Source of the DNA: Salinibacterium xinjiangense
GTDB lineage: Bacteria > Actinomycetota > Actinomycetes > Actinomycetales > Microbacteriaceae
Direction: 5' to 3'
NCBI RefSeq assembly: GCF_014645015.1
Contig: NZ_BMLC01000002.1
Span: 186,001 to 250,000, forward strand
DNA: 64,000 bases
Shown here: piece after piece, positions 32,603-52,226 of the stretch
Layout: each line of letters opens with the position of its first letter
Numbering within the stretch: position 1 is the stretch's first letter
Made by a program: the position numbers and the translations under genes
Notes under the pieces: generated by a model
Seen by the model: the letters and a program-made list of their open reading frames with translations, nothing else
What the model was told of the DNA's origin: nothing
The model's database searches: none

Positions 32603-32611
32603 AATGCGCAC

Positions 32612-35871: not shown

Positions 35872-36351
35872 ATGGCTGTTGGACCTCGTGTAGTTTTCGT
35901 GCGCTTCCAGAGTGCCGACAGTCCAAAACTAACACCGTGGATCGCTCATGTTTCACGGGTCGTCGGTCGCACCGCGCGAGCCACCGTGCCGGTTGTCGGT
36001 GACAGCCGTATCGTCTGGCAACTGGTGTCTGCGAACAACCGCGAGCTGGCCAGGAGCGTGGACGTCTACGGCACCTTCGAGTCGGCAACCGCCGGCGCGC
36101 AACACGTCGTCGATTCGAGCGCCGATTCGGTCATCGAGCAGGTGAGCGAATCGGGTCGCGGAGTCTACGGATGGTTCACGACAGTCGATGGCGTGCCGGT
36201 AATGACGTGCGCGCGTTGGTACGTCACCGACCGTGACCGCCGCCACTCCATCGAGATCGCACGCAAAGCCATCGTGTCGGCGACGCTGCACACCGGAGCT
36301 CGACTCAACCTGCCTGCACTGATGGGAGGCGATCTTGGCCGCCAGCGTTGA
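35872..36351 (+). CDS. Conserved hypothetical protein, DUF1508/YegP-like
   Basis: A 159-residue protein. After a short N terminus, IVWQLVSANNRELARSVDVYGTFESA resembles the beta-strand/helix unit of DUF1508 (YegP) proteins, followed by a helix and a strand with YGWFTTVDG. The function is unknown. ATG 35872 has an AAGGTGG site; an upstream ATG at 35812 is less supported. The 3' end overlaps the start of pstC by 17 bp, so it is likely the first gene of the Pst-WxL operon and translated with it. Confidence 0.55.
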   Translation: MAVGPRVVFVRFQSADSPKLTPWIAHVSRVVGRTARATVPVVGDSRIVWQLVSANNRELARSVDVYGTFESATAGAQHVVDSSADSVIEQVSESGRGVYGWFTTVDGVPVMTCARWYVTDRDRRHSIEIARKAIVSATLHTGARLNLPALMGGDLGRQR

Positions 36352-37459
36352 GACAGGCAGCGTCGAGGCAGGCGCCGTCGAGACAGGAACGGTTGAGACA
36401 GACAGCGTTGAGACAGACAGCGTCGAGACAGGCACCGCGATTCTCGAGGTGACCGAGCCGATGACCGAGGCCTTGCCCGTTGCCGAAGACAAGCCGAGAA
36501 AGCTGTCGTCGAAGATCGACCGGCCGGATGCCGCGTTCCGCTGGATCGCGCGCGGTGGCGGCACCATCGTGGTCACCGTCATGTCGCTCGTCGGCCTGTT
36601 TCTCGCCTACCAGGGTTTCCAGGCCCTGCAGGTCGCCGGGCCGTCTTTTCTCACCGAGCAGAGCTGGGATCCGAACTCGGGCAAGTTCGGCATCGCCGCG
36701 GTATTGGCCGGCACGTTCTTTATCGCCCTCACGGCGATCTCATTCGCCCTGCCCCTGGCACTGGGCACGGCGCTCTACATCAGCGAGTACGCCCCGGCGA
36801 AGATCAGGAACGGACTGGTGACGATAGTCGACCTCATGGCGGCCGTGCCCAGCGTCGTTTACGGGCTGTGGGGCGTGTTCTTCCTGAGTCCGAACATCAT
36901 CCCTGTCTCCCAGTGGCTGTCGACCTATCTGAACTGGATCCCCGTCTTCCGCGTCAATGGCTTCGACACGAACGACCCGCTGGCAAGCCCGACGGTGTTC
37001 GCGGCATCCACCTTCATCGCAGGAATCGTCGTGGCCCTGATGGTCGCGCCGATCACCAGTTCGATTATGCGGGAGGTGTTCACGCAGGCCCCGATCGGCG
37101 AACGTGAGGGTGCACTCGCGCTCGGTGCCACCCGCTGGGGCATGATTCGCAACGTTGTGCTGCCCTTCGGTCGGGGTGGCATCATCGGTGGAACCATGCT
37201 CGGTCTCGGCCGGGCACTCGGCGAGACCATCGCGGTGTTCCTGATCATCTCGCCGGTGTTCGTCATCCAGCCGCACATTCTTGAAAAGGGTGCGAACTCG
37301 ATCTCGGCCCTCATCGCCCTGCGTTACAACGAGGCGTCGGTCTTCGAGATCTCCGCGTTGATGGCGGCTGGGCTCGCTCTCTTCCTCATCACCCTCGTCG
37401 TCAACTTCATCGCCTCGACGATCATCGTGCGAAGCCGCTCAGGGAGCCAAAGCGACTAA
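36335..37459 (+). CDS. pstC: Phosphate-type ABC transporter permease PstC
   Basis: A 374-residue permease with six core membrane helices. The cytoplasmic coupling motif EREGALALGATRWGMI and the GRALGETIAV segment are typical of PstC. A cytosolic N-terminal extension of about 70 residues begins with six near-repeats of the unit VET(G/D)(S/T), encoded by a 15-bp tandem. The TTG start is supported by GGGAGG at 36322-36327, inside the overlapping upstream gene. It forms the channel with PstA; pstA starts at the stop codon (TAATG). Confidence 0.9.
   Translation: MAASVETGSVEAGAVETGTVETDSVETDSVETGTAILEVTEPMTEALPVAEDKPRKLSSKIDRPDAAFRWIARGGGTIVVTVMSLVGLFLAYQGFQALQVAGPSFLTEQSWDPNSGKFGIAAVLAGTFFIALTAISFALPLALGTALYISEYAPAKIRNGLVTIVDLMAAVPSVVYGLWGVFFLSPNIIPVSQWLSTYLNWIPVFRVNGFDTNDPLASPTVFAASTFIAGIVVALMVAPITSSIMREVFTQAPIGEREGALALGATRWGMIRNVVLPFGRGGIIGGTMLGLGRALGETIAVFLIISPVFVIQPHILEKGANSISALIALRYNEASVFEISALMAAGLALFLITLVVNFIASTIIVRSRSGSQSD
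36350..36439 (+). repeat. Six 15-bp tandem repeats in the pstC 5' end
   Basis: Consensus GAGACAGGCAGCGTC, six units, each in frame (five residues per unit). Copy-number change would lengthen or shorten the PstC N-terminal tail without a frameshift. Confidence 0.85.
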
Positions 37460-38814
37460 TGTCAACCACCGAACAGACCGAGGCGCCCACCGCGCTTGCG
37501 CCCGCACACGTGGCCCCTCCTGTATCGAGTCCGCGCACCTGGATCAGGGATGCGGCAATGGCAACGCCGCCCGGCGCGGCCGAGGCTCGCCGGTCGACGG
37601 CAACCGTCCGCACCGTCGATGTGATCCGGATGCTCGGATCCGCCGCCGCGGCGGTCGGACTCACAGCCTGGCTCTACTTTTTTGCGCTCCCGCTGCAGGG
37701 GCAGCTCGGTTTCGTGCTGATCTCCTACCTGATCTTCCTGATCCTGTTCGCGATCTTGACATCGTTCGATGAGAACCGGATCACGGTGAAGGATCGCCTC
37801 ATCGCCGTTTTCATCCAGTCGCTCGCGTTCATCCTGCTACTCGCGCTGTTCTCGGTCGTCATCTACACCTTCGGTCGGGGACTCGCGCCGTTGGGTAACC
37901 TGAATTTTTTCATCGAAGACATGAGCAACGCCGGTCCGCTTGAGCCTCTGACACAGGGAGGCGTGCTCCACGCCGTGGTCGGCACACTGATCATGATCAC
38001 GATCGCGCTAGCGATCAGCATTCCGCTCGGACTCCTCACCGCCGTCTTCCTGAGCGAGTTCCCCGGACGCTACGCCAGCTTCGTACGCACGATCGTCGAG
38101 GCCATGACCGCGCTGCCGTCCATCGTCGCCGGTCTCTTCATCTACGCGACGCTCATCGTCTTTCTGGGCTTCAACCGGTCGGGCTTCGCGGCATCCCTCG
38201 CTATCACGGTGATGATGCTGCCGATCATCATCCGTTCGGCCGATGTTGTGCTGCGACTCGTGCCGGGAAACCTCAAGGAGGCGTCGAGAGCGCTCGGTGC
38301 CTCGACGTGGCGCACGGTCTGGAACGTGACCCTGCCGACGGCCAGGTCGGGGCTCACGACGGCCATCATCCTCGGCACCGCGCGCGGCATCGGTGAGACC
38401 TCGCCGGTGCTCCTGACGGCGGGTGCCACGACATTCCTCAACCTGAACCCGTTTAACGGTCCGATGACATCGCTGCCGCTCACCACTTTCACGTTCGTGA
38501 AGTCCCCGGAATTGACGATGGTCGCCCGAGGCTTCGGCACGGCCGCGGTGCTCATGGTGCTCGTCCTGATCCTGTTCGCACTGGCAAGAGCCATTGGCGG
38601 CAGGGGCGCGGGTCAGCTCTCTGTTCGGCAGCAGCGCGCTCGGACGAGGCAGTCCCGCGATGACGATTACCGCTACCGCAGGCGTGAGCTCGGTTTGGAC
38701 CGCAACGGTGGGGGAGCGTCGCGCGGCTCGCTGCGCGCGCGGCTCGGCATCGGCCATCCATTGCCACCTCGCGAATCCCCCGCCACACCGACCAGGAAAG
38801 ACACCAAATCGTGA
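37459..38814 (+). CDS. pstA: Phosphate-type ABC transporter permease PstA
   Basis: A 451-residue permease, well above the usual size of about 300. Residues 1-50 are a cytosolic tail; two extra helices (about 57-100) precede the six core helices. The coupling loop is LKEASRALGASTWRTVW and GIGETSPVLLTAG follows, as in PstA. The last 75 residues form an Arg-rich cytosolic tail. The ATG overlaps the pstC stop, and the stop overlaps the pstS start (GTGA). With PstC it forms the membrane channel. Confidence 0.9.
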   Translation: MSTTEQTEAPTALAPAHVAPPVSSPRTWIRDAAMATPPGAAEARRSTATVRTVDVIRMLGSAAAAVGLTAWLYFFALPLQGQLGFVLISYLIFLILFAILTSFDENRITVKDRLIAVFIQSLAFILLLALFSVVIYTFGRGLAPLGNLNFFIEDMSNAGPLEPLTQGGVLHAVVGTLIMITIALAISIPLGLLTAVFLSEFPGRYASFVRTIVEAMTALPSIVAGLFIYATLIVFLGFNRSGFAASLAITVMMLPIIIRSADVVLRLVPGNLKEASRALGASTWRTVWNVTLPTARSGLTTAIILGTARGIGETSPVLLTAGATTFLNLNPFNGPMTSLPLTTFTFVKSPELTMVARGFGTAAVLMVLVLILFALARAIGGRGAGQLSVRQQRARTRQSRDDDYRYRRRELGLDRNGGGASRGSLRARLGIGHPLPPRESPATPTRKDTKS

Positions 38815-40589
38815 AAAAGACGCTGACCGTCCCCAGGGGCATTCAGGGGACGCTCGCCATCGTGATGGTGGTGGCGCTGACCCTCGGGTCCGGTGTTGAA
38901 GGTACGACTGCGGCCGACGCCGAGGCCAGTCCTCAGTACCAGTCTGTACAGGGTGCCGGATCAACCTGGTCAGCCAACGCCCTCGACCAGTGGACCAGAA
39001 ACTTCTTCGACAACTATCAGGGAAGGGTGAGTTATACCGCCAGCGGGTCCACAGCCGGACGAACCCTCTTTTCGCAGGGAACTATTGATTTCGGCGTCTC
39101 GGAAATTCCCTACACATTGAGCGGCAGTGACGCCCCCGACCCGAAGCCGAAGCGGCCGTTCGCCTACATCCCGATCGTTGCCGGTGGTACGTCTTTCATG
39201 TACAACCTCGCCATCGGTGGCCAGCGGGTGAATAACCTGCGACTGTCGGGTGAGACGCTCGCCAAGATCTTTACCGGCGTCATCACGAAGTGGAACGACC
39301 CGGCGGTCGCAAAAGACAATCCAAAGCTCACACTTCCGGCGATTACCGTGGTGCCGGTTGTGCGCTCAGACGGTTCGGGCACCACGGCACAGTTCTCGTC
39401 ATGGATGAGGTCGCAATATCCGGCAATCTGGAACGCGTATTGCGCCAAGGCCGGTCGCTCGAACTGCGGCATCACCTCCAACTACCCGGTTGTTCCCGGC
39501 TCGGCATTCGTCAGCCAACAGGGCTCGGACGGCGTAGCCGGATTCGTCAAGGGCGACGCGGCAGGTGCGATCACCTACGTGGAGACCTCCTACGCGCTCA
39601 ACGAGGGATTTCCCGTCGCCAAGGTGCTGAACAGTTCCGGCTACTTCACAGAGCCGACGGCCTCGAACGTTGCGGTCTCCTTGCTGGCAGCGGTCGTTAA
39701 CACGACCGCAGCATCCCCGGACTACCTCACCGCCGACCTGCGCGGCGTGTACGGCAACGTAGACCCCAGAACCTATCCCCTGTCGTCCTACTCCTACATG
39801 ATCGTCCCGCTCGCGATCGAAGGCAATTTCACCGTGGACAAGGGACTGACGCTCGCCGAGTTTGTGTCGTACTTCCTATGCGAGGGCCAGCAGTCCGCCG
39901 AGGTGCTGGGGTACTCCCCGTTGCCGGTCAACCTTGCCTCCGCCGGTCTCGAACAGGCGCAGAGAATTCCCGGGGGAAACCCAAAAAACAAGACGATCGC
40001 GAGTTGCAACAACCCGACCTTCTCGCCGGATGGCACCAACAAACTCGCCAACGAAGCACCCCAACCCCAGGCCTGCGATAAGCAGGGCGCAGACCAGTGC
40101 TTGACCGGCACAGGCGGTGCGGCAGACACGGTCACCGCAGACAGTTCAGGGAATGCGAGCTCTGCAGCTGCTACGGCCAGCGCCGCCGCAGCGGCCGGTG
40201 CTGCGGGCGCCGTCGGTGCAGGAGGTGCCGTCGGTGCGGGAGGTGTGCCGGCTGCCGTCGACGGCAAAGCTGTCGGTTTGACTGCAGGAGGCGACCCGAT
40301 TGTCGCCGGTTCGCCGGTCGACCTGCCCGGCCGAGGTTTGTCGCTCGCGACACTCGCGTTCATGCTTCTCGCGGCGGTTGCGGCAATTTCGCTGGTGTTT
40401 CTCCCTCCGATGATCGCGCGCAGAAGAGCAGCCATGGCGGGTATTCCCCGCGGCCCGACCAGACGTCGGACAGACGGAAGCAAGAAGCGACAGAACTCGT
40501 CCCAGAATCGGCTGAGAATTCCCAAAGTTCATCTTGATAACCCCTTTAGGAAACGTGGTAGTGCCGCAGCTTCGAAGGGTGACTCATAA
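38811..40589 (+). CDS. pstS: PstS-like phosphate-binding protein with C-terminal membrane anchor
   Basis: A 592-residue protein. Residues 1-35 are a signal peptide without a lipobox. The binding domain shows GAGSTW (48-53), SGSTAG (78-83), IFTGVITKWNDP (153-164) and RSDGSGTT (185-192), the phosphate-site motifs of PstS. An Ala/Gly linker (about 440-500) leads to a membrane helix (about 511-534) and a basic cytosolic tail of some 55 residues. Usual PstS proteins are lipoproteins of about 370 residues, so this is an anchored variant. It overlaps pstA (GTGA) and lies directly before the 908-residue surface protein. Confidence 0.85.
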   Translation: MKKTLTVPRGIQGTLAIVMVVALTLGSGVEGTTAADAEASPQYQSVQGAGSTWSANALDQWTRNFFDNYQGRVSYTASGSTAGRTLFSQGTIDFGVSEIPYTLSGSDAPDPKPKRPFAYIPIVAGGTSFMYNLAIGGQRVNNLRLSGETLAKIFTGVITKWNDPAVAKDNPKLTLPAITVVPVVRSDGSGTTAQFSSWMRSQYPAIWNAYCAKAGRSNCGITSNYPVVPGSAFVSQQGSDGVAGFVKGDAAGAITYVETSYALNEGFPVAKVLNSSGYFTEPTASNVAVSLLAAVVNTTAASPDYLTADLRGVYGNVDPRTYPLSSYSYMIVPLAIEGNFTVDKGLTLAEFVSYFLCEGQQSAEVLGYSPLPVNLASAGLEQAQRIPGGNPKNKTIASCNNPTFSPDGTNKLANEAPQPQACDKQGADQCLTGTGGAADTVTADSSGNASSAAATASAAAAAGAAGAVGAGGAVGAGGVPAAVDGKAVGLTAGGDPIVAGSPVDLPGRGLSLATLAFMLLAAVAAISLVFLPPMIARRRAAMAGIPRGPTRRRTDGSKKRQNSSQNRLRIPKVHLDNPFRKRGSAAASKGDS

Positions 40590-40590
40590 C

Positions 40591-43317
40591 GTGCTCTCTG
40601 TGATGCTCTCCCACCCGAAGTCGCCAGCTCAGCGCCGCGTCAAGCGCGTCGTCACGGCAGTCTCCGGCGCACTCGTCACGCTGGCCGTGATGGGGCTGGT
40701 CGTCATTGTGCCGGTGGATTCGACGCCAGCGGTTGCCGCGACATCCACCAACTCGGAGTTGACTGTCGCCTGGGACGGCGATGTCTCACTGGCGAAGGAT
40801 TTCCAACCCGAACGCAACCCTTCGAGCTCCGGTTATGCGGAGTTCAACGACATCAAAGTCTCGGTCTCCCAGACGCAGGGAATTGTCGATCAGACTGTCC
40901 GGGTTTCCGTCACAGGGTTCAGCCCGACTATCAGCGCAACGCAGAGCCGGGACGGAGTCGCGGCCGACAGCGCGAAGAACTACATCCAGGCGATGCAGTG
41001 CTGGGGCGATGACCCCAATGCGGTTGATTTCAATGAAACCTGCCAATGGGGCGGTCGAGTGGATGGCACGGGCGTCGGTGACTCGGTCATCGCCGACAAT
41101 CTCGGTCGTGTCGGCCCCCTCGACAATGACTTCGCAAAGCCCACCACCCACGACGTTCCGTTCCGCACCGCCAACGGCAGGGAAGTGAGCGGCAAGCCAC
41201 GTCTGGTCGATGGTCTCGCCCAGTACGACATGCTCAACTATTTCAGTTCGTCCAGTACCAACGAGGTGAGCGCCGCCCGTATCGGTACGAAGGGATCAGG
41301 TTATTTCGAGTTCGAAACGCAGTCTTCCGCGTCAGCACCGCAGTTGGGCTGTGGTTCGGCGAAGCACCTTCGGTGCTGGCTCGTGGTGGTGCCGCGCGGC
41401 ACTCACTTTGGCGGAAATGGCGATGAGTGCAGCGGGGTCCGGGCTAACCAGGACCCGTACGACCTGTTCAAGAAAGGCCAGGCCAACGTCATCCAGGGGG
41501 GAAGCCCGGTAAACGACCAGTGCGACTATTTCGACAATCGCATCGTGGTTCCTCTCGACTTCATGCCGACTGGTGTCACCTGCGCGATCGGCAGCACGGA
41601 GACCCGAGTGGTCGGGTCACAGTTGATGACGGCTGCGATGAGCTCGTGGCAGCCGTCGCTGTGCTCGTCAGTGAAGTCGACCTTCAGTTTTTCGACCAAT
41701 TCTGATGTGTTGGCGCGAGCACAGCTGATTGATACTGGGCTCAGCTCTCCGAATATCGCGTATAGCGGCAACCCTGTGGCTGCGGGTGAGTTGAGCACCG
41801 AGAATCAGCGCACCAACTTCGCAAAAACCACACTGAGCTACGTGCCCGTCGGCGTCTCGTCGATGGTGATCGGGTTCGTCGCCGAATCCGCGTCAGGCCG
41901 CCAGGAGAGTCTCGTCTTCTCACCACGCCTGATGGCGAAATACCTCACGCAGTCTTATCCGTTCCTGGTGCCGCAGTCCATCTCGAGCCAGGGCAGGAAC
42001 GCGACTCACCTCGGTGCTGCTAACCAGAAGTACACGAAGCCTTTCCAGGATCCGGAGTTCCAGGTTCTGAATCCGACGAACTACCTGCAGTTCCAGTACG
42101 TACCGGCACTCGTGCTGCCGGGGTCCAAATCTGACGGCATCAGGCAGGTGTGGCGCTGGATCCTCGCCGACGCTGACGCTCGGGCGTTCCTTTCCGGCGC
42201 GGAGGACCCGTGGGGGATGACGGTCAACCCCTACTACCTCCCCAAAGGCACGGCGGCGGCGACGATCCCCTGGTACCTGAGTGAGTCGCGGGACTATCTC
42301 GAGACCGCGGTCACACGGGCAGTGGGACTGAGCAACCTCGACGGCACTCCGCGAAAACTCGTCGACTCTCCGCCCGACGATTTCTCCAAGTACGACCAAA
42401 CGCTGATGCCCTTGAAGCTCGCCACCGAGCGGTCGAGGTTCGACTCCATTCAGTTCGCGCCGTACTCCGAGACCTTCCTCGCTGGCGCGCGCCAGACATT
42501 TCGTGCGGATTCGCGAGCGAAGACCATGTGGGATCCGAACTCGATCAACGCGGTGGGAGAGAAGGGCGACTGGAAGGCCACCGGTGCCCAGGTGCCGGGC
42601 CAGCGATTCATGATCACGGTCACCGACAGCGTGTCGGCCCAGCGGTGGGGCATCAGCACCGCAAGCCTCACCGCGCCGGGAACGACGGTCACGGCGAAGA
42701 CGGTGCCAGCCGATGTGAAGTCCATCACGATGACCCCCGAATCGATGTCGAAGGCGCTCGCAGCGCTCACGGCGACGAGTCTGGATTCGGTGAAGCAGGT
42801 CGATCCGTCAAAGGTGGTTGCAGGTGGATGGCCGATGACGATGGTCACGTACGCAGGTGTCAACCTGACCAAAGCCCCGGTCGCGGCGAGGAAGACGATC
42901 TCGGCGATGTTGAAGCAGGTCACGACGACCGGGCAGATCCTGGGCACCGCGCCAGGTGAGCTGCCCACCGGCTACCTGCCTCTCACCGACGAGCTGAAAA
43001 CGCAGGCCGTGGCTGCTATCGCCACGATCGACTCCTTCGTGCCGGTAACGAAAACGCCTGCGCCGAAGCCTGCTGCCGCTAGTCCGGTTGCTCCGAAGGC
43101 CATCGCTCAGGATCCGTTCGAGGCGGCGGCCGATTCTGGAGCTGCGGCTGCCGCCGATCCGGCGGTCGTTGCCGGAGTCGACGAACTGTCGACGGCACGC
43201 ACCAACGCCTCGTCTACCGATCCACTTCTTCTTTCCGGCCTCGTGATCGCCCTTGTCATCGGGCTGGCAGGCCTGCTCATCGCCCCGGTCTTACTCAGAG
43301 GCAGAGGTTTCTTCTAA
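40591..43317 (+). CDS. Large surface protein with N-terminal signal and C-terminal membrane anchor
   Basis: A 908-residue protein I do not recognise by name. A basic N terminus (AQRRVKRVV) and a hydrophobic segment form a signal/anchor; a long beta-rich ectodomain contains paired cysteines (MQCWGDD and NETCQWG, LGCGSAKHLRCW, DECSG and DQCDYF). The C-terminal 200 residues end in GGWPMTMVTYAGVNL and TGYLPLTDE, reminiscent of the PstS C-terminal pattern. An Ala/Pro linker, a membrane helix (about 880-903) and RGRGFF close the protein. GTG 40591, one base after the pstS stop, is preferred; ATG 40603 is possible. Membership of the operon suggests a role in the wall complex. Confidence 0.72.
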   Translation: MLSVMLSHPKSPAQRRVKRVVTAVSGALVTLAVMGLVVIVPVDSTPAVAATSTNSELTVAWDGDVSLAKDFQPERNPSSSGYAEFNDIKVSVSQTQGIVDQTVRVSVTGFSPTISATQSRDGVAADSAKNYIQAMQCWGDDPNAVDFNETCQWGGRVDGTGVGDSVIADNLGRVGPLDNDFAKPTTHDVPFRTANGREVSGKPRLVDGLAQYDMLNYFSSSSTNEVSAARIGTKGSGYFEFETQSSASAPQLGCGSAKHLRCWLVVVPRGTHFGGNGDECSGVRANQDPYDLFKKGQANVIQGGSPVNDQCDYFDNRIVVPLDFMPTGVTCAIGSTETRVVGSQLMTAAMSSWQPSLCSSVKSTFSFSTNSDVLARAQLIDTGLSSPNIAYSGNPVAAGELSTENQRTNFAKTTLSYVPVGVSSMVIGFVAESASGRQESLVFSPRLMAKYLTQSYPFLVPQSISSQGRNATHLGAANQKYTKPFQDPEFQVLNPTNYLQFQYVPALVLPGSKSDGIRQVWRWILADADARAFLSGAEDPWGMTVNPYYLPKGTAAATIPWYLSESRDYLETAVTRAVGLSNLDGTPRKLVDSPPDDFSKYDQTLMPLKLATERSRFDSIQFAPYSETFLAGARQTFRADSRAKTMWDPNSINAVGEKGDWKATGAQVPGQRFMITVTDSVSAQRWGISTASLTAPGTTVTAKTVPADVKSITMTPESMSKALAALTATSLDSVKQVDPSKVVAGGWPMTMVTYAGVNLTKAPVAARKTISAMLKQVTTTGQILGTAPGELPTGYLPLTDELKTQAVAAIATIDSFVPVTKTPAPKPAAASPVAPKAIAQDPFEAAADSGAAAAADPAVVAGVDELSTARTNASSTDPLLLSGLVIALVIGLAGLLIAPVLLRGRGFF

Positions 43318-43361
43318 ACACCCGAAACTTCCTGTGCGTTTCGCTCCGGCGCACAAGAAAA

Positions 43362-43392
43362 CCCCTCATCGAACCGCAAAGCCAATGAGGGG
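43362..43392 (+). terminator. Hairpin between the anchored protein and the second PstS-like gene
   Basis: CCCCTCAT (43362-43369) pairs with ATGAGGGG (43385-43392) over a 15-nt loop, 45 nt after the stop codon. It may partly end transcription and let the downstream secreted proteins be expressed at another level. Confidence 0.5.
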
Positions 43393-43448
43393 CTAGTCCA
43401 TCCGGACTGAACTGCAGGGGCACCCTACCAAACGAAGGTTGGAACACA

Positions 43449-44558
43449 ATGCTCAACAAAACAAAGCTGCGTCTTGGCGTTGTAGCAGCTGCTGCTGCCG
43501 CCACGCTCGCGTTCGGCGCAGCGGCCCCCGCGTACGCAGACCCGATCGGCTTCAAGCCGCTCAACGGCGCGGGCTCTGACACCACCCAGGATGTTGTGGA
43601 TGGTGTCGCCACGGTCGTGACCTCGATCGGCTCCTGGGACGCGATCGGTTCGGCAACTATCCAGACCACGTCGGGTGGCGCGACGTTCAACCGTCCGAAC
43701 GGCTCGACGCAGGGCGTCCAGGCCCTGAGCGCGTCGATCAACAACACCGGTACGCGCACGTTCCCGGCTTCGGGCGGCGTGAGCATCACCGGCCAGCTCG
43801 ACTTCGCTCGTAGCTCTAGCGCACCGAGCGGCTCCTTCGTCGGAACCGACCTGACCTTCGTCCCCTTCGCTCGTGACGCCGTCACGTACGCGGTGAGCCA
43901 GGCGAGCGACTTCCCGCGCGACATTGCTCTCGGCAGCGCTTCACAGGATGCTGTTTCACCCGCGCCGTTCACACTGCGCAACATCTACCGTGGCGCCGTC
44001 ACCACCTACGCAGATGGCGACTTCAACGCTGTCACGATCCGTCCGATCATCCCGCAGTCAGGGTCCGGCACTCGCTCCTTCTGGCTCTCAGCGCTCGGCC
44101 TGACCGAAGCGACGATCGTCGGAACCCCGACGACGGACATCGGCAACACGGCACAGGAGCACACCGGTACCTACATCAAGAACGCCGGAGACATCGCACC
44201 GTTCTCTATCGCGCAGTACATCGCGCAGGGTAACCACGGTGCGCTGCCGACCAACGTCATCGAGCGCCGTGGGAACATCGCGCTGGGCAACGTCGACACG
44301 GTCAAGCCCATCCTGCTGACCGCAGGTGGCGGAGTCGAGCTCAACACCGCTTTCCCGATCAACCGTCTCGTGTTCAACGTCGTGCAGACCTCGCGCCTTG
44401 CCGGCACGTCGACGGCCGACACCCTGCTCAGGAACACCTTCTCAGGAACCACCTCGAGTGTCTGTGCGGCCTCCGCACAGATCAAGCAGTTCGGATTCGG
44501 CACCATCGGCTCCCTCTGCGGTAACACCACCACTTACAAGCAAGCCTTCCGTTACTAA
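43449..44558 (+). CDS. Secreted PstS-like substrate-binding protein
   Basis: A 369-residue secreted protein. Residues 1-30 are a signal peptide ending AYADP. NGAGSDTTQDVVDG, DFARSSSAP, FTLRNIYRGAVTTY and PQSGSGTRSFW follow the type II substrate-binding order seen in PstS-like proteins of actinobacteria. There is neither a lipobox nor a membrane helix, so it is released or held by partners. Two cysteines near the C terminus (SVCAAS, SLCGNT) probably form a disulfide. It is a second binding protein beside the anchored PstS and lies 35 nt before the first WxL gene. Confidence 0.78.
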   Translation: MLNKTKLRLGVVAAAAAATLAFGAAAPAYADPIGFKPLNGAGSDTTQDVVDGVATVVTSIGSWDAIGSATIQTTSGGATFNRPNGSTQGVQALSASINNTGTRTFPASGGVSITGQLDFARSSSAPSGSFVGTDLTFVPFARDAVTYAVSQASDFPRDIALGSASQDAVSPAPFTLRNIYRGAVTTYADGDFNAVTIRPIIPQSGSGTRSFWLSALGLTEATIVGTPTTDIGNTAQEHTGTYIKNAGDIAPFSIAQYIAQGNHGALPTNVIERRGNIALGNVDTVKPILLTAGGGVELNTAFPINRLVFNVVQTSRLAGTSTADTLLRNTFSGTTSSVCAASAQIKQFGFGTIGSLCGNTTTYKQAFRY

Positions 44559-44593
44559 CCCCCGCTAGAAAAACGATAAGGACACTTAAAGCA

Positions 44594-45871
44594 ATGAACA
44601 TCTCCAAAAAGATCGCAGCAATCGCGGTTGCCGCGGCGCTCACGGTTGGTGGGTTGAGCGCTACTCAATCCGCCTCGGCTGCCGAGATTCCCGGAACGCT
44701 CACGGTCACGCCCACCTCGGGTAACGTCTCAGACACCTACTTGTTCAACAGCATCGCCCTGGATATCGGCGCAGTCGCGCCGTACAACGTGCTAGCCGGA
44801 ACGTTCGCCTATCAGAATGGCGTCGAGATGGGGTCGCTCGCGAACGCGCGAAACGCTGGCAACGTGCCCTCAACGGCTGGGACAAGCGGTCTGAACGGTT
44901 CTGCGGCATTCCATGACCGCTCGATCAGCCCGACGAATAACTTCGTGAGCAACAAGCAGCTGACAGCGCTTGTCACCCCTCTGGTGACCGGAAATTGGGA
45001 GCTGCGCTGGTACTACTTCGCATCGACCACTGCACCGAACCGTACGACGGACCCGTACGTCAAGCTCAACATGACGTTCGATTCGACCACAGGTGCCTGG
45101 GCCGTCTACTCCGCTCCTGCTGCTGCAGTGGCCAGCACGACCTCGCTGACGGCCCAGGCCACTGGCTCGGCCGTGACGCTGAAGGCAACTGTTGCACCCG
45201 CAGCAGCTGTCGGGACGGTCTCCTTCTCCGAAGGTTCCACCGTTGTTGCTGCCAACGTCGCCGTTTCGGGTGGAGTCGCCACGGCGAACCTCCCGGCCGT
45301 CACCGATGGCCCGCACAGCTACACCGCTACCTTTACGCCGACGAACGCTGCCAACTTCACCGCATCCACCTCGACCGCGGCATCGGTGTACGTCGGCGCG
45401 ATTGTTCAGAGCACGAACGTGACGACGTCGGTCGCTGCGGGTGCTGGTGGTGGGGTTCTGACGTTGACGGGTGTGCCGGCTTCGGTCGCTCTTGGTGCGG
45501 CAACGCTCAACGCCGGAACGCTTAACGCTTCCGGAACGCTGAACGCTGTTGTCACCGATTCACGCCAGCTTGATTTCCCGGCGTGGAGCCTCACCGGCCA
45601 GATCGCTGACTTCAAGTCGGGTACGAAGGTTCTCTCGGGTAAGTACCTGGGTTGGACCCCGTCGGTGACGGGTGCTCCGAACTCTGTTGCTGGTGCGGTT
45701 GTGCTGCCGGCTCCGGGTTCGGTCAGCGGCCTGACGACGGTCAGCACGCTGGCCACTGGTGCACCGAACAATGTCGAGGTCAGCAACGTTTCGGCGCTGC
45801 TGCAGCTCAAGGCTCCGAAGAACACTCCTGCCGGTGACTACTCGGCAGTGCTCACGCTGACCCTCATCTAG
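44594..45871 (+). CDS. WxL-domain surface protein 1
   Basis: A 425-residue secreted protein. Residues 1-30 are a signal peptide; 35-172 form a beta-rich domain shared with the next gene; 180-268 form an Ig-like (Big_3_5 type) domain with VTLKATV and GPHSYTATF; 274-425 match the WxL wall-binding domain, with the first motif in FPAWSLTG (Trp331-Leu333) and the second in DYSAVLTLTL, where Trp is replaced. WxL domains bind peptidoglycan non-covalently and are known mainly from Firmicutes. The DUF916 partner gene lies downstream, as in Firmicutes clusters. The last 472 nt are almost identical to the next gene. Confidence 0.78.
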   Translation: MNISKKIAAIAVAAALTVGGLSATQSASAAEIPGTLTVTPTSGNVSDTYLFNSIALDIGAVAPYNVLAGTFAYQNGVEMGSLANARNAGNVPSTAGTSGLNGSAAFHDRSISPTNNFVSNKQLTALVTPLVTGNWELRWYYFASTTAPNRTTDPYVKLNMTFDSTTGAWAVYSAPAAAVASTTSLTAQATGSAVTLKATVAPAAAVGTVSFSEGSTVVAANVAVSGGVATANLPAVTDGPHSYTATFTPTNAANFTASTSTAASVYVGAIVQSTNVTTSVAAGAGGGVLTLTGVPASVALGAATLNAGTLNASGTLNAVVTDSRQLDFPAWSLTGQIADFKSGTKVLSGKYLGWTPSVTGAPNSVAGAVVLPAPGSVSGLTTVSTLATGAPNNVEVSNVSALLQLKAPKNTPAGDYSAVLTLTLI

Positions 45872-45882
45872 GTTCAGTCGCT
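45411..45882 (+). repeat. WxL-coding direct repeat, copy 1
   Basis: 472 nt matching copy 2 at 46833-47304 without indels and with about nine mismatches by eye. It covers the WxL domain and 11 nt after the stop codon, so the identity continues outside the reading frame. Confidence 0.9.
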
Positions 45883-45983
45883 TCACCGGCGGGTTGGGCA
45901 CAGCGCACTGCTGGGCCCAACTCGCCACCACCATTTCACCACCCCTCATCGTTCCCCCCGACGCTGATAAGGAGCCCCCGACC

Positions 45984-46004
45984 ATGACCCCTGCTTCCGG
46001 TTGA
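45984..46004 (+). other. Six-codon mini-reading frame before WxL gene 2
   Basis: AAGGAG at 45969-45974 is ideally placed for ATG 45984, but that frame stops after six codons (MTPASG) at a TGA that overlaps the TTG start of WxL gene 2. Either translation is coupled through TTGA or a single-base deletion has split the signal peptide from its start. Confidence 0.6.
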
Positions 46005-47293
46005 GGGCCGCGGCCCTTGCTGGCGCCATCATTGCCGCATCCCTCACCGGATCGCTGGCGGCGGCCCAGCCCGCATTCGCCGGCGGGCCCGTCGTCCAGG
46101 TCGCATCCCTCACCGTCTCGCCGCTCAGCGGCAACGCCACCGCGGATTCCACCTTCCTGTCGAGCATCGCCACGAACGTGGGCGCGCCGGCCGGAGCGCG
46201 TGCCTCCGGCGCGACCTTCATTTTTCAGGGGGATGTGAGCCGCGGGCCGATCGCGAGCATGCGCACGGTATCCACTCCCGGCACCTATGGCACCTTCGGT
46301 CTCGACGGCCAGCCCGGCTTCGCTGACAGGTCTACCGTCGCCGCGAATAACTATGTGAGCAACCTCGAGCTCGATGCGCCGGAACTGGGCCTCACCACCG
46401 GCATCGTCGAACTGCGCTACTACTGGTCGGCATCGGCGACCGGCCCTGATGCCGCCACGGATCCGTACCTCCAGATCGCCATCGACTGGAATGCGTCCAC
46501 CGGAGCCTGGAGCGTGCTGCCACCCCCGGTCGACACCACCGTCTCGCTCGCGGCCTCATCGTCAGGCTCGACGGTGACCCTCGACGCGTCCATCAAGGAT
46601 GCGGCGACCGGCCTGGTCGACACTTCAGCGCCGGGCCCTGTCACCTTTATCGAGAATTCCGCGATCATCGTCGGAATCGCAGAGGTCGTCGCCGGTCACG
46701 CCGTGCTCGTGCTGACGGGCGTCTCTGACGGCCCGCACACCTACCGTGCTGACTACGACAGCTCCAATTTTTACACTCATGTCGGGTCGTCATCTGGCGA
46801 CGCGTCAGTGAACGTCGGCGGCCAGGGAGGTGGCACGAACGTGACGACGTCAGTTGCTGCGGGTGCTGGTGGCGGTGTGTTGACGTTGACGGGTGTGCCG
46901 GCTTCGGTCGCTCTTGGTGCGGCAACGCTCAACGCCGGAACGCTGAACGCTTCCGGAACGCTGAACGCTGTTGTCACCGATTCACGCCAGCTTGATTTCC
47001 CGGCGTGGAGCCTCACCGGCCAGATCGCTGACTTCAAGTCGGGTACGAAGGTTCTCTCGGGTAAGTACCTGGGTTGGACCCCGTCGGTGACGGGTGCTCC
47101 GAACTCTGTTGCTGGTGCGGTTGTGCTGCCGGCTCCGGGTTCGGTCAGCGGCCTGACGACGGTCAGCACGCTGGCCACTGGTGCACCGAACAATGTCGAG
47201 GTCAGCAACGTTTCGGCGCTGCTGCAGCTCAAGGCTCCGAAGAACACTCCTGCCGGTGACTACTCGGCAGTGCTCACCCTGACCCTCATTTAG
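46001..47293 (+). CDS. WxL-domain surface protein 2
   Basis: A 430-residue paralogue of the preceding protein with the same plan: signal-like hydrophobic segment ending AQPAFAGG, a shared N-terminal beta domain, an Ig-like domain (about 183-272) and a WxL domain over the last 152 residues, which is identical in sequence to that of protein 1. The N-terminal halves differ widely. The in-frame start is TTG 46001 without its own ribosome site; the good AAGGAG/ATG pair upstream is in another frame. It may therefore depend on coupling or be frameshifted. It should attach to the wall in the same way as protein 1. Confidence 0.7.
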   Translation: MRAAALAGAIIAASLTGSLAAAQPAFAGGPVVQVASLTVSPLSGNATADSTFLSSIATNVGAPAGARASGATFIFQGDVSRGPIASMRTVSTPGTYGTFGLDGQPGFADRSTVAANNYVSNLELDAPELGLTTGIVELRYYWSASATGPDAATDPYLQIAIDWNASTGAWSVLPPPVDTTVSLAASSSGSTVTLDASIKDAATGLVDTSAPGPVTFIENSAIIVGIAEVVAGHAVLVLTGVSDGPHTYRADYDSSNFYTHVGSSSGDASVNVGGQGGGTNVTTSVAAGAGGGVLTLTGVPASVALGAATLNAGTLNASGTLNAVVTDSRQLDFPAWSLTGQIADFKSGTKVLSGKYLGWTPSVTGAPNSVAGAVVLPAPGSVSGLTTVSTLATGAPNNVEVSNVSALLQLKAPKNTPAGDYSAVLTLTLI

Positions 47294-47402: not shown

Positions 47403-48608
47403 ATGTCCCGAATCACCACCCCCATCTCCTTGCTTATGGCCATGGCTTTAGCCCTCTCGCCGTTGGCTGTTTCGGCGTTCGGATTTGCTCCGGCCCCGAC
47501 CGCGGCAGCGGTGGACGGTGACATCACGTGGAGTGTGGAACCTGCTCCCACGGCAGAGGGCGGTCGCCGCACCTTCGACTACAAGACAGACCCCGGCACG
47601 CAGATCAACGACACCGTGCTCGTCACCAACCAGGGCACCACCGCCGCCGAATTCCTGATCTACGCGACCGACGCCCGCAACGAGCTGGAGACCGGGGCGT
47701 TCGGTCTGCTCAAGCGCGAAGAAGAGCCTATTGACGCCGGCGCCTGGATCACGACCGACATCGACAAGATCACGCTCCAGCCCGGCACGGAGGCGAGCAT
47801 TCCGTTCACCGTCCTCGTTCCCTCAGACGCTACCCCCGGCGATCACGTCGGTGGCATCGTTGCATCGGTCCTGACGACGGGCGACCAGGATGGCGCCGCG
47901 GTCGTGCTCGAACAGCGCGTCGGCGCTCGCGTGTACCTGACGGTGTCGGGAATCCCGGATGTCGGTGTCGAGACCAGCGGATTCCTCGCCGGCTTCACCC
48001 CCGAACTCAACCCCTTCGCGCCCGGCACAATGTCGGTCACCTACGATGTGCGCAACACCGGGAACGTGCGGATGGATGTGAACCAGAAGCTGCAGATCAC
48101 CGGGCCGTTCAGCATCCCACTGGGAGAGCTCACCCCGGAGCCGATCTCCAACATCCTTCCCCGCCAGACCGTGCGAGTGACCTCGCAGGTGCCCGCCATC
48201 GCCGCTCTGCTGATGGCATGGTCGACCGTCACTCTCGTGCCCGGGGCGATCGGCACTGCTGGGAACGCCATCGGCGATAGCCCGACCGCTGGCGCCTCAT
48301 CCGCGCCGACGAGTCCAGCTGCGGCGGATCCTGCTGTGGCAGCTCCGGCGGCGGCGGATCCTGCGGCTCCGGTGGTCGAGACGGAGGAGGCGCTCGAATT
48401 CCTGCCCGTGTCATCCTCGGCGTTCTCGCTCGCCATGTCGTGGACGCTGCTCGCTCTCATCGTTGTCGTGATCCTCGCGATCTTCCTCGTCCACCGTTAC
48501 GTGACCGGCATGCGAGACCGCCTGTACGACGCGATCGACGAAGCGGCAGAGGCGGCGCGCATCGAGGCGCTCGGCGGGCCGGGCACTACGGGGGTGCAGG
48601 CGGTATGA
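47403..48608 (+). CDS. DUF916 / WxL-interacting protein, membrane anchored
   Basis: A 401-residue protein. A signal peptide (1-35) precedes a DUF916 domain (about 38-165) with DPGTQINDTVLVTNQG, FLIYATDA and VPSDATPGDHVGGIVAS, the family pattern. A second beta domain (about 170-255, DUF3324-like position), an Ala/Pro linker, a membrane helix (345-364) and a cytosolic tail follow. In Firmicutes DUF916 proteins (WxLIP) bind peptidoglycan and WxL proteins. Presence right after two WxL genes supports both calls. It overlaps the next gene by ATGA. Confidence 0.82.
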   Translation: MSRITTPISLLMAMALALSPLAVSAFGFAPAPTAAAVDGDITWSVEPAPTAEGGRRTFDYKTDPGTQINDTVLVTNQGTTAAEFLIYATDARNELETGAFGLLKREEEPIDAGAWITTDIDKITLQPGTEASIPFTVLVPSDATPGDHVGGIVASVLTTGDQDGAAVVLEQRVGARVYLTVSGIPDVGVETSGFLAGFTPELNPFAPGTMSVTYDVRNTGNVRMDVNQKLQITGPFSIPLGELTPEPISNILPRQTVRVTSQVPAIAALLMAWSTVTLVPGAIGTAGNAIGDSPTAGASSAPTSPAAADPAVAAPAAADPAAPVVETEEALEFLPVSSSAFSLAMSWTLLALIVVVILAIFLVHRYVTGMRDRLYDAIDEAAEAARIEALGGPGTTGVQAV

Positions 48609-49372
48609 GACGAGTCATCGCCCTCGGGATCGGCACGTTGATCCTGGCCTCGAGCGTTCTGCCGTCGCTGGCAGTCGGCAACATGGCTTTCGCCGCGGCA
48701 TGCCCCGGCACGAGTTCGTCACTGCCCCTCAGCGTCACCATCCCCGACATCGGCCAGTCGGGCGGCGGTGACGTCGCAACCCCCGCGCCGACGGCCTGTG
48801 CGACGACCCCCCCGCCAGCGACGGGTGGAACGACTCCAGGCGGGTCGGGATCGGGAGGCTCGGGTTCAGGCGGCGGAGCTGCCACCCCCACGACTCCTGC
48901 CAGCCCCTCGGGCGAAGTAGTCGCGCCGATACCGCCCGCCACCCCATCCGGGAGCGCTTCGAAGCTCGAACTCGACCCCGAGCGCATTTCGGTACACGAA
49001 TGGATGGCCGCCACCGGCACCGGCTACAACGCCGACGAGAAGGTGCAATTGGTGCTCTATCCCGGTGCCGAGGTCATCGGCAGCTACGTGGCAGACGCCA
49101 CGGGGACGGTAACGGCCCGCTTCAGGATCCCCGACGAGACCCGTTCTGGCTCGCATGTGCTCGAAGCAACCGGCTGGGCGTCGGAGAAGGTGTCGAATGG
49201 TGCATTCACCGTCGTGACGGTCGCCGGTGCCGGCACGATACCGATGCTGTGGTGGGTCATCATCCTGTGCGGATCCCTGCTGGTCGGGCTCATCATCTTC
49301 GCGATCTACTTCCGGCGCAATATTGCCCACGCCTTCCGCGGCGGGCCCGAGACGGTGAAGGGAACCCCGTGA
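48605..49372 (+). CDS. Anchored surface protein with Gly/Ser/Pro linker
   Basis: A 255-residue protein: signal peptide (1-31), a short region with two cysteines (AACPG, TACATT), a Gly/Ser/Thr/Pro-rich spacer (about 62-110), a beta domain (about 120-205) with LDPERISVHEWMAATGTGYNA and SGSHVLEATGW resembling an IPT/Ig-like fold, and a C-terminal membrane helix (about 215-238) with a basic end. No enzymatic motif is seen. It is coupled to DUF916 upstream and the sortase-like gene downstream by 4-bp overlaps, so it is likely a structural part of the wall complex. Confidence 0.7.
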   Translation: MRRVIALGIGTLILASSVLPSLAVGNMAFAAACPGTSSSLPLSVTIPDIGQSGGGDVATPAPTACATTPPPATGGTTPGGSGSGGSGSGGGAATPTTPASPSGEVVAPIPPATPSGSASKLELDPERISVHEWMAATGTGYNADEKVQLVLYPGAEVIGSYVADATGTVTARFRIPDETRSGSHVLEATGWASEKVSNGAFTVVTVAGAGTIPMLWWVIILCGSLLVGLIIFAIYFRRNIAHAFRGGPETVKGTP

Positions 49373-50391
49373 CGCTGGTAGCCGAACCCGAGGTCGACGG
49401 CGCGGCTGCTGCCGAGGCATCCATTGTCGTCGTGGCCCCGACGCCGAAGAAGGCACCGCCGGCGAAGAAGCCGCCGAAGGGACTGCCGTTCTGGCTGCGC
49501 AAGCGGCCGAACCGCCCTCGGAACACCCGCCCGGCACCGACCCCGAGGGATATCCGCTGGTGGGTGGGGGTCGTCTGGCTGCTGCTGTCAGCCCTGCTGC
49601 TGGGGTTCGTGACGCACGTGACGATCATCGGATCGCTGCAGCATTCGCGTGCCCAGTATGTGCTGTACCAGGATCTGCGCACCGAGCTCGCGCTTGCGAC
49701 CACGCCGCTGGGTCAGCTCGGCGTCGATGGCAACCTCGTGCCCAACGGCGCCCCGCTCGGGCTCATCAGCATCGATCGCCTGGGGATCAACGAGGTGTAC
49801 GTGCAGGGAACCGCCCCGACCGACCTCACCAAGGGACCGGGTCACCGTCGTGACACGGTCATGCCTGGCCAGCAGGGCACGAGCATACTCATGGGCAGAC
49901 AGGCTACCTACGGTGGCCCTTTCGGTTCATTGAGTGCCCTGATCCCAGGCGACAAGATCACTGTCACGACCGGGCAGGGTAAGTCGACCTACACGGTGTT
50001 CGGCGTTCGACGTGATGGCGACCTCTTGCCGCAGCCGCTCGAAACGGGGGAGGGGCGACTCGAGCTGATCACGGCGAACGGCGTTCCGCTCGCGCCATCC
50101 GGAGCCCTGCACATCGACGCGTCCCTCGAGTCCGAGGCCAACCAAACCCCTTCGCCGGTGTTCACCAAAGAGGTACTCGACCCGTCTGAACTCGAACTCG
50201 GCATCGACTCGACGGGGTGGTTCCCACTGCTTTTCTGGCTGCAGTGGCTCACGGTGGCCGTCACAGCCCTGCGGTGGGTGCGAGGCCGCTGGGGCATGTG
50301 GCAGACGTGGATGATCGCTGTCCCCGTCGTGCTCGCCCTCGGGGCCGCGACCGCTGATGCCGCGATGACGCTTCTTCCCAACCTGCTCTAG
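49369..50391 (+). CDS. Sortase-fold protein lacking catalytic residues (pseudo-sortase)
   Basis: A 340-residue membrane protein with a basic Pro-rich cytosolic tail, a helix (about 63-88), a class E sortase-like domain (about 115-255) and two C-terminal helices. The fold is marked by [52 protein letters not shown] and STYTVFGV. At the catalytic positions, MGRQATYG has Arg177 where sortases have His, LELITANG has Ala236 in place of the Cys, and SGALHI has no Arg. All three catalytic residues are therefore missing and transpeptidation is unlikely. A scaffold or binding role in the WxL/Pst complex is inferred. Confidence 0.78.
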
Positions 50392-50410
50392 CCCGACCCG
50401 AGGAAACGAC

Positions 50411-51538
50411 ATGGACGAACCGACGAAACCCATCAGCACTGCGTCATCTGCGCGCACCCGCAGCACCGTCACCTCGAAGAAGCCCACAGCTCCGAGGCCG
50501 AAGGGTGCAGCGCAACGCAAGCCGACCGCATCAGCGACCACCACGGCCACGGCAGCTGCGCGTAAGACGACCCCGAAGCGCGCTTCGCTGGCAACCGCTG
50601 GAGCCGTGCAGGTGTCGGTCGAAGCCCCGCCGGCACCGGTCGACGACATGACGACCGCGGTGCCCACGATCACCGGGGTCATGAAACGCCCCGAGCTTCC
50701 CGAGACGCAGTGGAAGGGCGGAGAACTCGCCTCCAACACCCCGCCGCCCCTGCCTGATGCACCACTCGCCGTGCTGCAGGCGAACTCCATCTCGGCCTGG
50801 TTCGGTGACCGCAAGGTGCTCGACCGCGTCGACCTCACCATGGAGGCGGGCAAGGTGACGGCGCTCATCGGTCCGTCGGGTTGCGGCAAGTCCACCTTCC
50901 TGCGCATCCTGAACCGGATGCACGAGATGATCCCGTCTGCCTCACTCGCGGGCGAGGTGCTGCTCGATGGGGTCGACATCTACGACGCCAACCGCCGCCT
51001 CACCCAGGCCCGCCGTGACATCGGCATGGTGTTCCAGAAGCCCAACCCGTTCCCGGCGATGTCGATCTATGACAACGTCATCGCGGGGCTCAAGCTCACC
51101 GGCATCTCGGCCAGCCGCGACACGAAAGACCAGCTCGTCGAGTCGAGCCTCACCAAGGCCGGCCTCTGGAAGGAGGTGCGCGACCGACTTCGCCAGCCCG
51201 GCGGTGGCCTCTCCGGAGGGCAACAGCAGCGACTGTGCATCGCTCGCTCGCTCGCGGTGCGCCCGCGGGTGCTTTTGATGGATGAGCCGTGCTCCGCGCT
51301 CGACCCGACCTCCACTCGCGTCATCGAGGAGACGATGCTCGAGCTCGCCAAAGAGGTGACGATCGTGATCGTGACTCACAACATGCAGCAGGCCCAGCGC
51401 GTGTCTGACAATTGCGCATTCTTCCTGGCCTCGCTCGGCACCCCCGGCGCGATCGTCGAGCAGGGCGACACCGCGGTGATGTTCTCCGACCCGACAGACC
51501 CGCGCACCCTCGACTACGTCAACGGCCGATTCGGATGA
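50411..51538 (+). CDS. pstB: Phosphate-type ABC transporter ATPase PstB with long N-terminal extension
   Basis: A 375-residue ATPase. Residues 120-375 are a typical PstB domain: Walker [10 protein letters not shown] (154-162), [16 protein letters not shown], signature LSGGQQQR, Walker [14 protein letters not shown] and the H-loop THNMQQA. Residues 1-117 are a Lys/Ala/Thr/Pro-rich low-complexity extension absent from ordinary PstB (about 260 residues). GAGGAAA before ATG 50411 supports this start. It energises the PstC-PstA channel encoded 12 kb upstream; the surface genes lie between. Confidence 0.92.
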
Positions 51539-51572
51539 CCCCGGCGGCACGACCGCGTATCGCGCGATCATT

Positions 51573-52226
51573 ATGAGCGACGCGACGCCCGATCCCTTCG
51601 CCGCCTATCACCGTGCCGGTCGCCGGATGACCCTGGCGCGGGTCATTCCGGCCGTGATCGCCGCGCTCGCCATCGGCGGCGGGCTCGGGTATGTCGCTGG
51701 CGCCGCCCCCGCCGCCCCTCCGGCAGCGGTGGAACAGGATTCCCCAGCTCAGGCTGTCGGTCCGCCGCCGGACGCCGCTCCGCCACCGATCCCCGCAGCC
51801 CAGCTGCCGCAGCCCGGTGCGCCTGCCGGCGCGCCGGGCGAGGCGCCCCCGCCAAGGGCGCCCGCACTGCCGACGCTGGCTGCGACCGGTGAGGCGGAGT
51901 GGTCCATTTCGATCGACACCACGGGGTATCAGGCCGAGATCGACCAGTGCCTGTGGGTGCGGATGGACCTGGGCGTGCACGCGCCCGTTGTCGGCAAGCA
52001 CAACTACTGCGGCGGCGACATAGTGCTGGGTATGGCCATCGGCGACACGGTGACGTTGGCCGGGGTCGGCCTCGACGGCACGTACACGGTCGCCGCGACC
52101 CGTGACGCGCAGGCCGGCGACTACGCGAAGGTCGCCACAGAGGGGCTCGGTGGCTCGGTGATCCTGCAGACCTGCTACTGGGGAAATACCGGTGCGGAAC
52201 GGCTCGTAGCCCTCGATCGGACGTAG
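51573..52226 (+). CDS. Anchored secreted protein, Pro/Ala-rich with C-terminal domain
   Basis: A 217-residue protein not recognised by name. A membrane helix at about 20-44 follows a short cytosolic part; residues 45-105 are Pro/Ala-rich; residues 108-217 form a beta-rich domain with three cysteines (DQCLW, NYCGG, QTCYWG). The domain lies outside the membrane. It starts 34 nt after pstB and may be the last gene of the locus. The function is unknown; a role in the wall complex is only suggested by position. Confidence 0.62.
   Translation: MSDATPDPFAAYHRAGRRMTLARVIPAVIAALAIGGGLGYVAGAAPAAPPAAVEQDSPAQAVGPPPDAAPPPIPAAQLPQPGAPAGAPGEAPPPRAPALPTLAATGEAEWSISIDTTGYQAEIDQCLWVRMDLGVHAPVVGKHNYCGGDIVLGMAIGDTVTLAGVGLDGTYTVAATRDAQAGDYAKVATEGLGGSVILQTCYWGNTGAERLVALDRT

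Follow-up and report, generated by a model that had tools for sequence, protein, structure and literature searches.

Importers of the Pst type (PstSCAB, with the binding protein PstS, the permeases PstC and PstA and the ATPase PstB) signal as well as transport. Display systems built on WxL domains have been described from another setting: more than 91% of 938 WxL sequences belonged to Firmicutes (PMC9772566), and DUF916 has been proposed to bind both WxL and peptidoglycan (PMC10599100). In a 64,000-nt stretch of Salinibacterium xinjiangense (source genome 3.0 Mb; contig NZ_BMLC01000002.1, positions 186,001 to 250,000; hereafter the window), an initial annotation had described a Pst-type transporter locus fused with such a WxL wall-display system, and had placed WxL domains mainly in Firmicutes. 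Our analysis confirmed the observation and supported its interpretation in part. All 11 genes were found at the place, in the order and on the strand that had been claimed, co-directional on the + strand, between an aldo/keto-reductase-like gene on one side and glmU- and prs-like genes on the other (the reductase-like gene and prs were named by eye, the glmU-like gene by its Pfam domains):

36335..37459, +, pstC (permease); TIGR02138
37459..38814, +, pstA (permease); BPD_transp_1, alignment with E. coli PstA
38811..40589, +, PstS1, the anchored pstS product with a long linker and a C-terminal hydrophobic segment; TIGR00975
40591..43317, +, giant surface protein, 908 aa; AlphaFold2, Foldseek, hhalign
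43449..44558, +, PstS2, secreted PstS-like protein; PF12849, 32.4 bits
44594..45871, +, WxL-like protein 1, immunoglobulin (Ig)-like domain (Big_3_5) and C-terminal WxL-like domain; relatives' profile
46001..47293, +, WxL-like protein 2; start codon unclear
47403..48608, +, DUF916 protein (WxL-interacting, PGBD) with a C-terminal hydrophobic segment; PF06030
48605..49372, +, anchored surface protein, proline/glycine-rich; sequence reading
49369..50391, +, sortase-fold membrane protein without catalytic residues; PF04203
50411..51538, +, pstB (ATPase) with Walker A and LSGGQ; TIGR00972

The 4-bp overlaps claimed at several joints were present at three of them (pstA/pstS, DUF916/anchored protein and anchored protein/sortase-like), and pstC and pstA share a single base. 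Our preferred reading, which we hold to be probable without great confidence, is that the locus encodes a second, dedicated Pst-type ATP-binding cassette (ABC) importer (PstC–PstA–PstB) with wall-displayed binding proteins.

Like the Pst importer, the locus has PstC, PstA and PstB of the known families, most of the PstS1 phosphate pocket and the permease arginines. Unlike PstSCAB, it has a PstC of a separate clade, is usually additional to another Pst, carries pstB at its far end, has a PstS1 with a C-terminal hydrophobic segment in place of a lipid anchor (judged by eye), and has a wall module and a further pair of PstS-fold proteins encoded amid its transporter genes. As in the WxL/WxLIP (csc-type) clusters of Firmicutes, a DUF916 protein with a C-terminal hydrophobic segment adjoins a protein with a C-terminal WxL-like domain (PMC10599100), and the described pair of Asp and Arg precedes the first WxL motif (PMC9772566). 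In contrast to those clusters, the WxL-like domain retains just its first motif, DUF3324 was not detected in the window protein, the window has no small WxL protein, and there is a tie to a Pst transporter. The sortase-like protein has class E sortase as its best NCBIfam match (below cut-off) and passes the Pfam Sortase cut-off, but departs from class E in having lost the catalytic His and Cys and in its extra C-terminal hydrophobic segments. Judged by sequence, we class the transporter as a variant of Pst and the DUF916 protein as WxLIP-like, with no DUF3324 found. We call the WxL proteins WxL-like, as they have one of the two motifs, and do not count the sortase-like protein among the functional sortases. 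Our searches of an open-access library turned up no description of such a Pst-type/surface-protein/sortase/WxL block.

If the preferred reading is correct, actinobacteria, some Streptomyces included, would have a second phosphorus-uptake route organised through the wall, and ‘one Pst, one binding protein’ would oversimplify their response to phosphate scarcity. The reading would also place WxL/DUF916 display outside the host-attachment setting of earlier descriptions.

Conservation of the block beside an ordinary Pst

We called a block complete when pstC, pstA, pstS1 and the giant-protein gene were consecutive and were followed by a variable middle and then by the sortase-like gene and pstB. 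Complete blocks were present in 74 distinct actinobacterial loci, the window's included, ranging from Microbacteriaceae to Streptomyces and Actinoplanes, so the surface genes do not stand beside pst in this genome only, an outcome that would have spoken against the initial annotation. Genes in the loci were predicted by a simple caller and labelled by profiles made from the first locus set; the loci were counted as distinct if the first 200 residues of the giant protein differed, and loci cut by contig ends were excluded from the counts of 74 and 77. Strict gene order was kept in 73 of the 77 judgeable loci. Among the four exceptions, L069 has another order, L108 contains a spurious 61-aa open reading frame (ORF), pstB was called short in L116 and pstC was not called in L145. 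L069 (genome G149) carries the same gene set, but with PstS2 and the giant protein ahead of pstC–pstA–pstS1–sortase-like–pstB. The constant extras of the block are the giant PstS-fold protein, PstS2 (without a label in 2 of 73 complete loci; 74 and 73 differ because duplicates were dropped after, not before, the completeness test) and the inactive sortase.

Relatives of the giant protein, searched with its 927-aa ORF form, were detected in 35 of 150 family genomes and 24 of 85 genera, own genome included. Scanning named genomes yielded at least 598 candidates, 575 of which were confirmed; the best 80, which gave 79 loci, span Cryobacterium, Agromyces, Microbacterium, Curtobacterium, Cellulomonas, Promicromonospora and Propionibacteriaceae, among others, and extend to Streptomyces, Actinoplanes, Plantactinospora and Planotetraspora. 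The block is a conserved system, widespread but patchy in Actinomycetota.

The system is usually an extra and not a replacement. Of 39 carriers checked, 38 (8/8, 26/26 and 4/5) have a further PstC in addition to the block's own, so replacement of the ordinary Pst is not the rule. The 39 comprise the 8 known carriers among the relatives searched and 31 other family genomes with a giant-protein match. The order-level relatives were searched for DUF916 only, and carriers among them may be more; on the short contigs of G087 and G160, the assignment of the ordinary PstC is presumptive. The window's genome has a plain pstS–pstC–pstA–pstB at another place. In a tree rooted on E. coli, the operon PstC were monophyletic (95 of 95 copies, support 0.878) and none of the 31 ordinary PstC fell inside; here, as in the residue counts for PstC, PstA, PstB and the sortase-like protein below, some copies were fetched twice.

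Relatives of a PASTA kinase lay beside the block in 24 of the 74 complete loci and relatives of a lytic transglycosylase in 12 of the 74; L053, L054, L060, L101 and L140 are among the loci with such neighbours. These neighbours link the block to wall synthesis.

Transporter core and PstS-fold proteins

The window's PstC (TIGR02138, 252 bits; cut-off 196) and PstS1 (TIGR00975, 206.1 bits; cut-off 205) passed the models of their families, PstB came slightly below its cut-off (TIGR00972, 336.5 bits versus 343.2), and PstA was assigned through BPD_transp_1 and its alignment with the E. coli protein. Pocket and permease residues are given in what we take to be the E. coli numbering. In PstS1, the equivalents of Ser38 (97/97), Arg135 (97/97), Ser139 (96/97) and Gly140 (97/97) are kept, that of Thr10 is Thr or Ser in 96 of 97 and that of Thr141 is variable, which amounts to a phosphate pocket apart from changes at Phe11 and Asp56 that we take up below. 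PstC keeps the Arg237 equivalent in 96/96 copies; PstA keeps those of Arg170 (101/101) and Arg220 (100/101) and has Asp at the Glu173 equivalent in 101/101. The Walker A Lys of PstB is present in 88/88 copies, and LSGGQ in the window's PstB. With these residues in place, the transporter core appears functional.

The giant protein was modelled with AlphaFold2 at a mean predicted local distance difference test score (pLDDT) of 87.4 and a predicted template modelling score (pTM) of 0.83. Its best solved matches in Foldseek were PstS proteins, including E. coli PstS in 9k3x with an expectation value (E) of 1.1e-10; against 9k3x the template modelling (TM) score was 0.75 by target length and 0.29 by query length. 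With hhalign, residues 341–813 aligned to residues 49–386 of PstS1 (probability 96.6, E 6.4e-10), and the C-terminal half matched M. tuberculosis PstS1 in the PDB (E 1.1e-9). The protein divides into a beta-rich extra N-terminal domain (∼55–340), a PstS fold with insertions (∼341–813), a linker and a C-terminal helix, and six Cys are invariant in 99 of 99 members. At the position of Ser38, 87 of the 99 have Asp or Glu, and the Arg135 stretch falls in a gap. The giant protein looks like an enlarged PstS fold that has lost its phosphate pocket.

PstS2 has a signal sequence and, by eye, no membrane anchor. It lacks equivalents of Arg135 and Asp56 and has a conserved pocket of its own, with Gly42-Ser43-Asp44-Thr45, Arg82, Ser86, Arg121 and Ser123 in 95 of 97 copies (the other two being gaps), Ser206-Gly207 in 97/97, Thr208 in 93/97 and Arg209 in 92/97. 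We read PstS2 as a putative working binding protein with a ligand, which we infer, or a binding mode unlike that of PstS.

Anchor modules and the sortase-like protein

The window's DUF916 protein matched PF06030 with a score of 29.1 in one search (cut-off 27.3) and 26.5 in hmmscan. All 25 aligned members matched the same family at E up to 1, the best of them at 8.3e-10, and the DUF916 profile matched the solved EfmWxLIP1 (9i1y, E 4.7e-5), in line with a DUF916 (PGBD) domain. DUF3324 (HBD) was listed neither for the window's DUF916 protein nor among the 25 of 44 families listed. For the WxL-like proteins, PF13731 was detected in 9 of 34 relatives at E up to 1 (best 3.7e-6), while the window's own two gave no PF13731 match at E up to 0.1; their WxL identity comes from the matches of relatives and not from one of their own. 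Against 9i25_A, a WxL domain of solved structure, the WxL-like profile aligned (E 0.014) along the Asp-x-Arg...Trp-x-Leu stretch, in which Asp322 and Arg324 are invariant and Trp331 and Leu333 are kept in at least 90% of the 34, consistent with a first WxL motif. At the place of the second Trp-x-Leu motif there is a TLTLTLI-like C-terminal strand without Trp. Foldseek with the whole WxL-like model found generic Ig folds and no WxL among the 50 matches listed, which is neutral on the WxL fold. The support for WxL and DUF916 folds that the initial annotation had asked for is thus at hand, in the family matches and in 9i1y and 9i25_A.

The anchor module nevertheless varies. WxL and/or DUF916 proteins occur in the block of 41 of the 74 complete loci, a long PstS2 (length >500 aa) without either in 23 and LPxTG-, LAxTG- or MPxTG-type proteins in 9; in one (L151), no anchor was recognised. 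Big_3_5 (Ig-like) was matched by 20 of the 23 long PstS2. None of the 23 had WxL or DUF916 in the same block (Fisher 1.6e-11), and neither was seen in the rest of the DNA fetched for these loci. Mapped on the core-protein tree, the anchor type switches at least four times (23 or more with shuffled labels). By their sequences, WxL and DUF916 are genuine, yet the pair is one anchor module among several. The proposed fusion of Pst with WxL display therefore holds as one conserved block and fails as a description of its constant parts. That the anchors change around a constant core is our strongest evidence for wall display as the purpose of the module. The window's anchored surface protein (48605..49372) had no LPxTG that we could find.

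In the second WxL-like gene, no in-frame ATG or GTG start lies at the signal peptide (45984–46010), and TTG at 46001 is the sole candidate there; an ATG nearby in another frame runs into a stop within a few codons. The last 400 nt of the two WxL-like genes are 99.3% identical (3 differences), and with such near-identical ends the second gene looks like a recent duplicate or a product of gene conversion. In six further loci (L079, L081, L082, L083, L084 and L086), WxL-like and DUF916 genes were seen with no pstC, pstA, pstS or giant protein labelled in the fetched 20 kb, the stretch of L086 starting at a contig end. These are apparently WxL systems outside Firmicutes and free of pst.

The protein annotated initially as sortase-fold did match PF04203 (50.8 bits, cut-off 26.6), and the fold is supported by sequence; its class E match reached 61.7 bits against a cut-off of 160. 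The catalytic His and Cys positions, which we presume to be those of sortases in general, are Arg177 and Ala236 in the window protein. In the operon copies, the His position is Arg in 90 of 90 and the Cys position is Ala in 80, Gly in 7, Ser in 2 and Thr in 1, never Cys, and an active sortase was rejected on these grounds. A protein in L132 with both His and Cys (39 bits) proved to be an ordinary sortase at the start of the stretch, outside the block. Since the Arg is fixed, which is not the mark of random decay, we argue for a new, non-enzymatic role; that this is docking is our guess. The protein would be a conserved case of a sortase fold kept after the loss of catalysis, with Arg fixed at the catalytic His position.

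Regulation, ligand and alternative readings

PHO boxes consist of GTTCACC-type units 11 bp apart (PMC4415409, PMC9019756). PHO-box-like repeats scoring at least 12 of 14, a threshold picked after the first scoring round, were found in 17 of 83 operon upstreams versus 3 of 144 control upstreams taken from these same loci (p 4.7e-6), and all 17 were on the operon's strand. Shuffles and permuted motifs served as further controls, and the operon upstreams had been reduced from 88 to 83 by dropping near-identical PstC. At other thresholds the counts were 34/83 versus 9/144 (at least 11) and 6/83 versus 1/144 (at least 13); permuted motifs reached 12 in 0.37 upstreams on average and at most in 5. 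An earlier, strict pattern was found in 4 of 89 upstreams (shuffle mean 0.07), a weaker result than that of the 14-position score. The ordinary pst of the window's genome carries a box of 13/14. Given the intact phosphate residues in PstS1 and the permease and the PHO-box-like repeats upstream of some copies, a phosphate-type ligand is likely.

Under the preferred reading of a second importer with wall-displayed binding proteins, the locus would be made when phosphate is scarce. PstS2 and the stalk proteins in the wall would capture a phosphate-type ligand, which could be phosphate or, considering three nearly invariant arginines of PstS2, a more anionic ligand, for example pyrophosphate or an ester. 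Docking of the wall part beside the permease would fall to the giant protein and the dead sortase, as membrane-bound scaffolds; PstS1 would load PstC–PstA, and PstB would drive uptake. As proposed in the initial annotation, we infer that the ligand is handed to the Pst channel. A wider version, which we put forward as tentative, is a phylum-wide, wall-spanning Gram-positive ABC importer in which three PstS-fold proteins relay a phosphorus ligand to a dedicated permease, with the sortase as docking subunit and several kinds of wall anchor. There, PstS2 would be wall-displayed with a new pocket, the giant protein a pocket-less scaffold and PstS1 tethered.

Several observations weigh against the preferred reading. 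The distribution is patchy: the giant-protein profile matched 8 of 396 genomes drawn from across the phylum (E 1e-20 or better; the source genome and a partial match in G211 are counted), and in the genus 5 of 27 genomes, of which one (G021) was a weak partial match, leaving 4 clear ones. In G149 (85% complete), the exception among the carriers, the PstC of the block is the only one seen, and G003, G012 and G024 have two PstC yet no giant protein, so that a second PstC is not peculiar to carriers. The anchor types are not fully exclusive either, as L152 has both LPxTG and WxL in its block, and L134 and L149 (LPxTG type) have WxL-like genes right after pstB, in L149 with DUF916 too. As for phosphate control, 66 of the 83 upstreams scored below 12, and the window's own best box (10/14) is no better than chance. 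Finally, the Phe11 equivalent of PstS1 is Trp in 96 of 97 copies and that of Asp56 is Glu in 89 of 97 and Asp in 8, which leaves room for another ligand.

These two substitutions, together with a PstS2 pocket that lacks Arg135 and Asp56 equivalents and instead keeps Asp44, Arg82, Arg121 and Arg209, are what would favour an importer for another oxyanion or an organic phosphorus compound over one for inorganic phosphate. We consider this unlikely, as the remainder of the phosphate pocket in PstS1 hardly varies, the permease scores above the cut-off of the PstC model and the PHO-box-like repeats point to phosphate control. A wall-anchored Pst could, alternatively, act as a sensor that informs PhoR-type or PASTA-kinase signalling of phosphate, or of wall polymers rich in phosphate, transport being secondary. 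Pst systems signal in any case, relatives of a PASTA Ser/Thr kinase and a lytic transglycosylase are near some copies, and uptake may already be served by the other PstC of nearly all carriers. We nonetheless rate a sensor as quite unlikely: the residues that we examined in the permease and the ATPase are conserved, no sensor kinase or phoU is among the genes labelled in the block (no search aimed at phoU was made), and 50 of 74 loci have no PASTA kinase close by, and neither does the window. Equally doubtful is a surface or adhesion structure of WxL, Ig-repeat and LPxTG proteins with a PstS-like tip, in which the Pst proteins would help assembly or be co-opted, without import. It draws on the description of Firmicutes WxL clusters as surface platforms (PMC10599100, PMC9772566), on the pocket-less giant protein and on the variable anchors, but in PstS1, PstC, PstA and PstB the residues examined for transport and ligand binding are conserved (the changes noted aside), which a purely structural role would not need, and the upstreams are enriched in PHO-box-like repeats. 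The idea of chance neighbours, with unrelated surface genes inserted into an ordinary pst operon, could appeal to a lower G+C over 32–46 kb of the window and is practically refuted by the conservation of the same block in 74 distinct loci across the phylum and by the block's own PstC clade.

The spacing of the genes offers further hints on expression. Joints among the transporter and membrane genes have medians of at most 20 bp, and wider gaps precede PstS2 (median 132 bp, 101 pairs) and separate WxL from DUF916 (median 119); these would suit differing protein amounts, if weakly. In the window, the first gap holds a hairpin:

43362..43392, +, 8-bp inverted repeat (hairpin) in the 131-bp gap ahead of the PstS2 gene; read from sequence

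Folding 60 of 88 such gaps gave a modest signal (mean z −1.1, 30% below −1.5). PstS2 had the highest codon adaptation of the operon (0.700; one genome, with ten ORFs as a rough reference, of which one, at 0.482, is perhaps no ribosomal gene).

Around the block, one more feature recurs; it has no Pfam match, and 32 of the 74 complete loci have a relative of it close to the block:

35986..36351, +, small upstream gene (c8); ORF open from 35812

A 217-aa protein between pstB and glmU (51573–52226) had neither a Pfam nor an NCBIfam match, and relatives were labelled there only in the same-genus loci L077 and L080. G+C is 0.61–0.64 over 32001–46000 versus 0.64–0.68 elsewhere in the window, a dip that may hint at acquisition. 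A run of GACT tetranucleotide repeats lies at 35517–35542, between the reductase-like gene and the small upstream gene.

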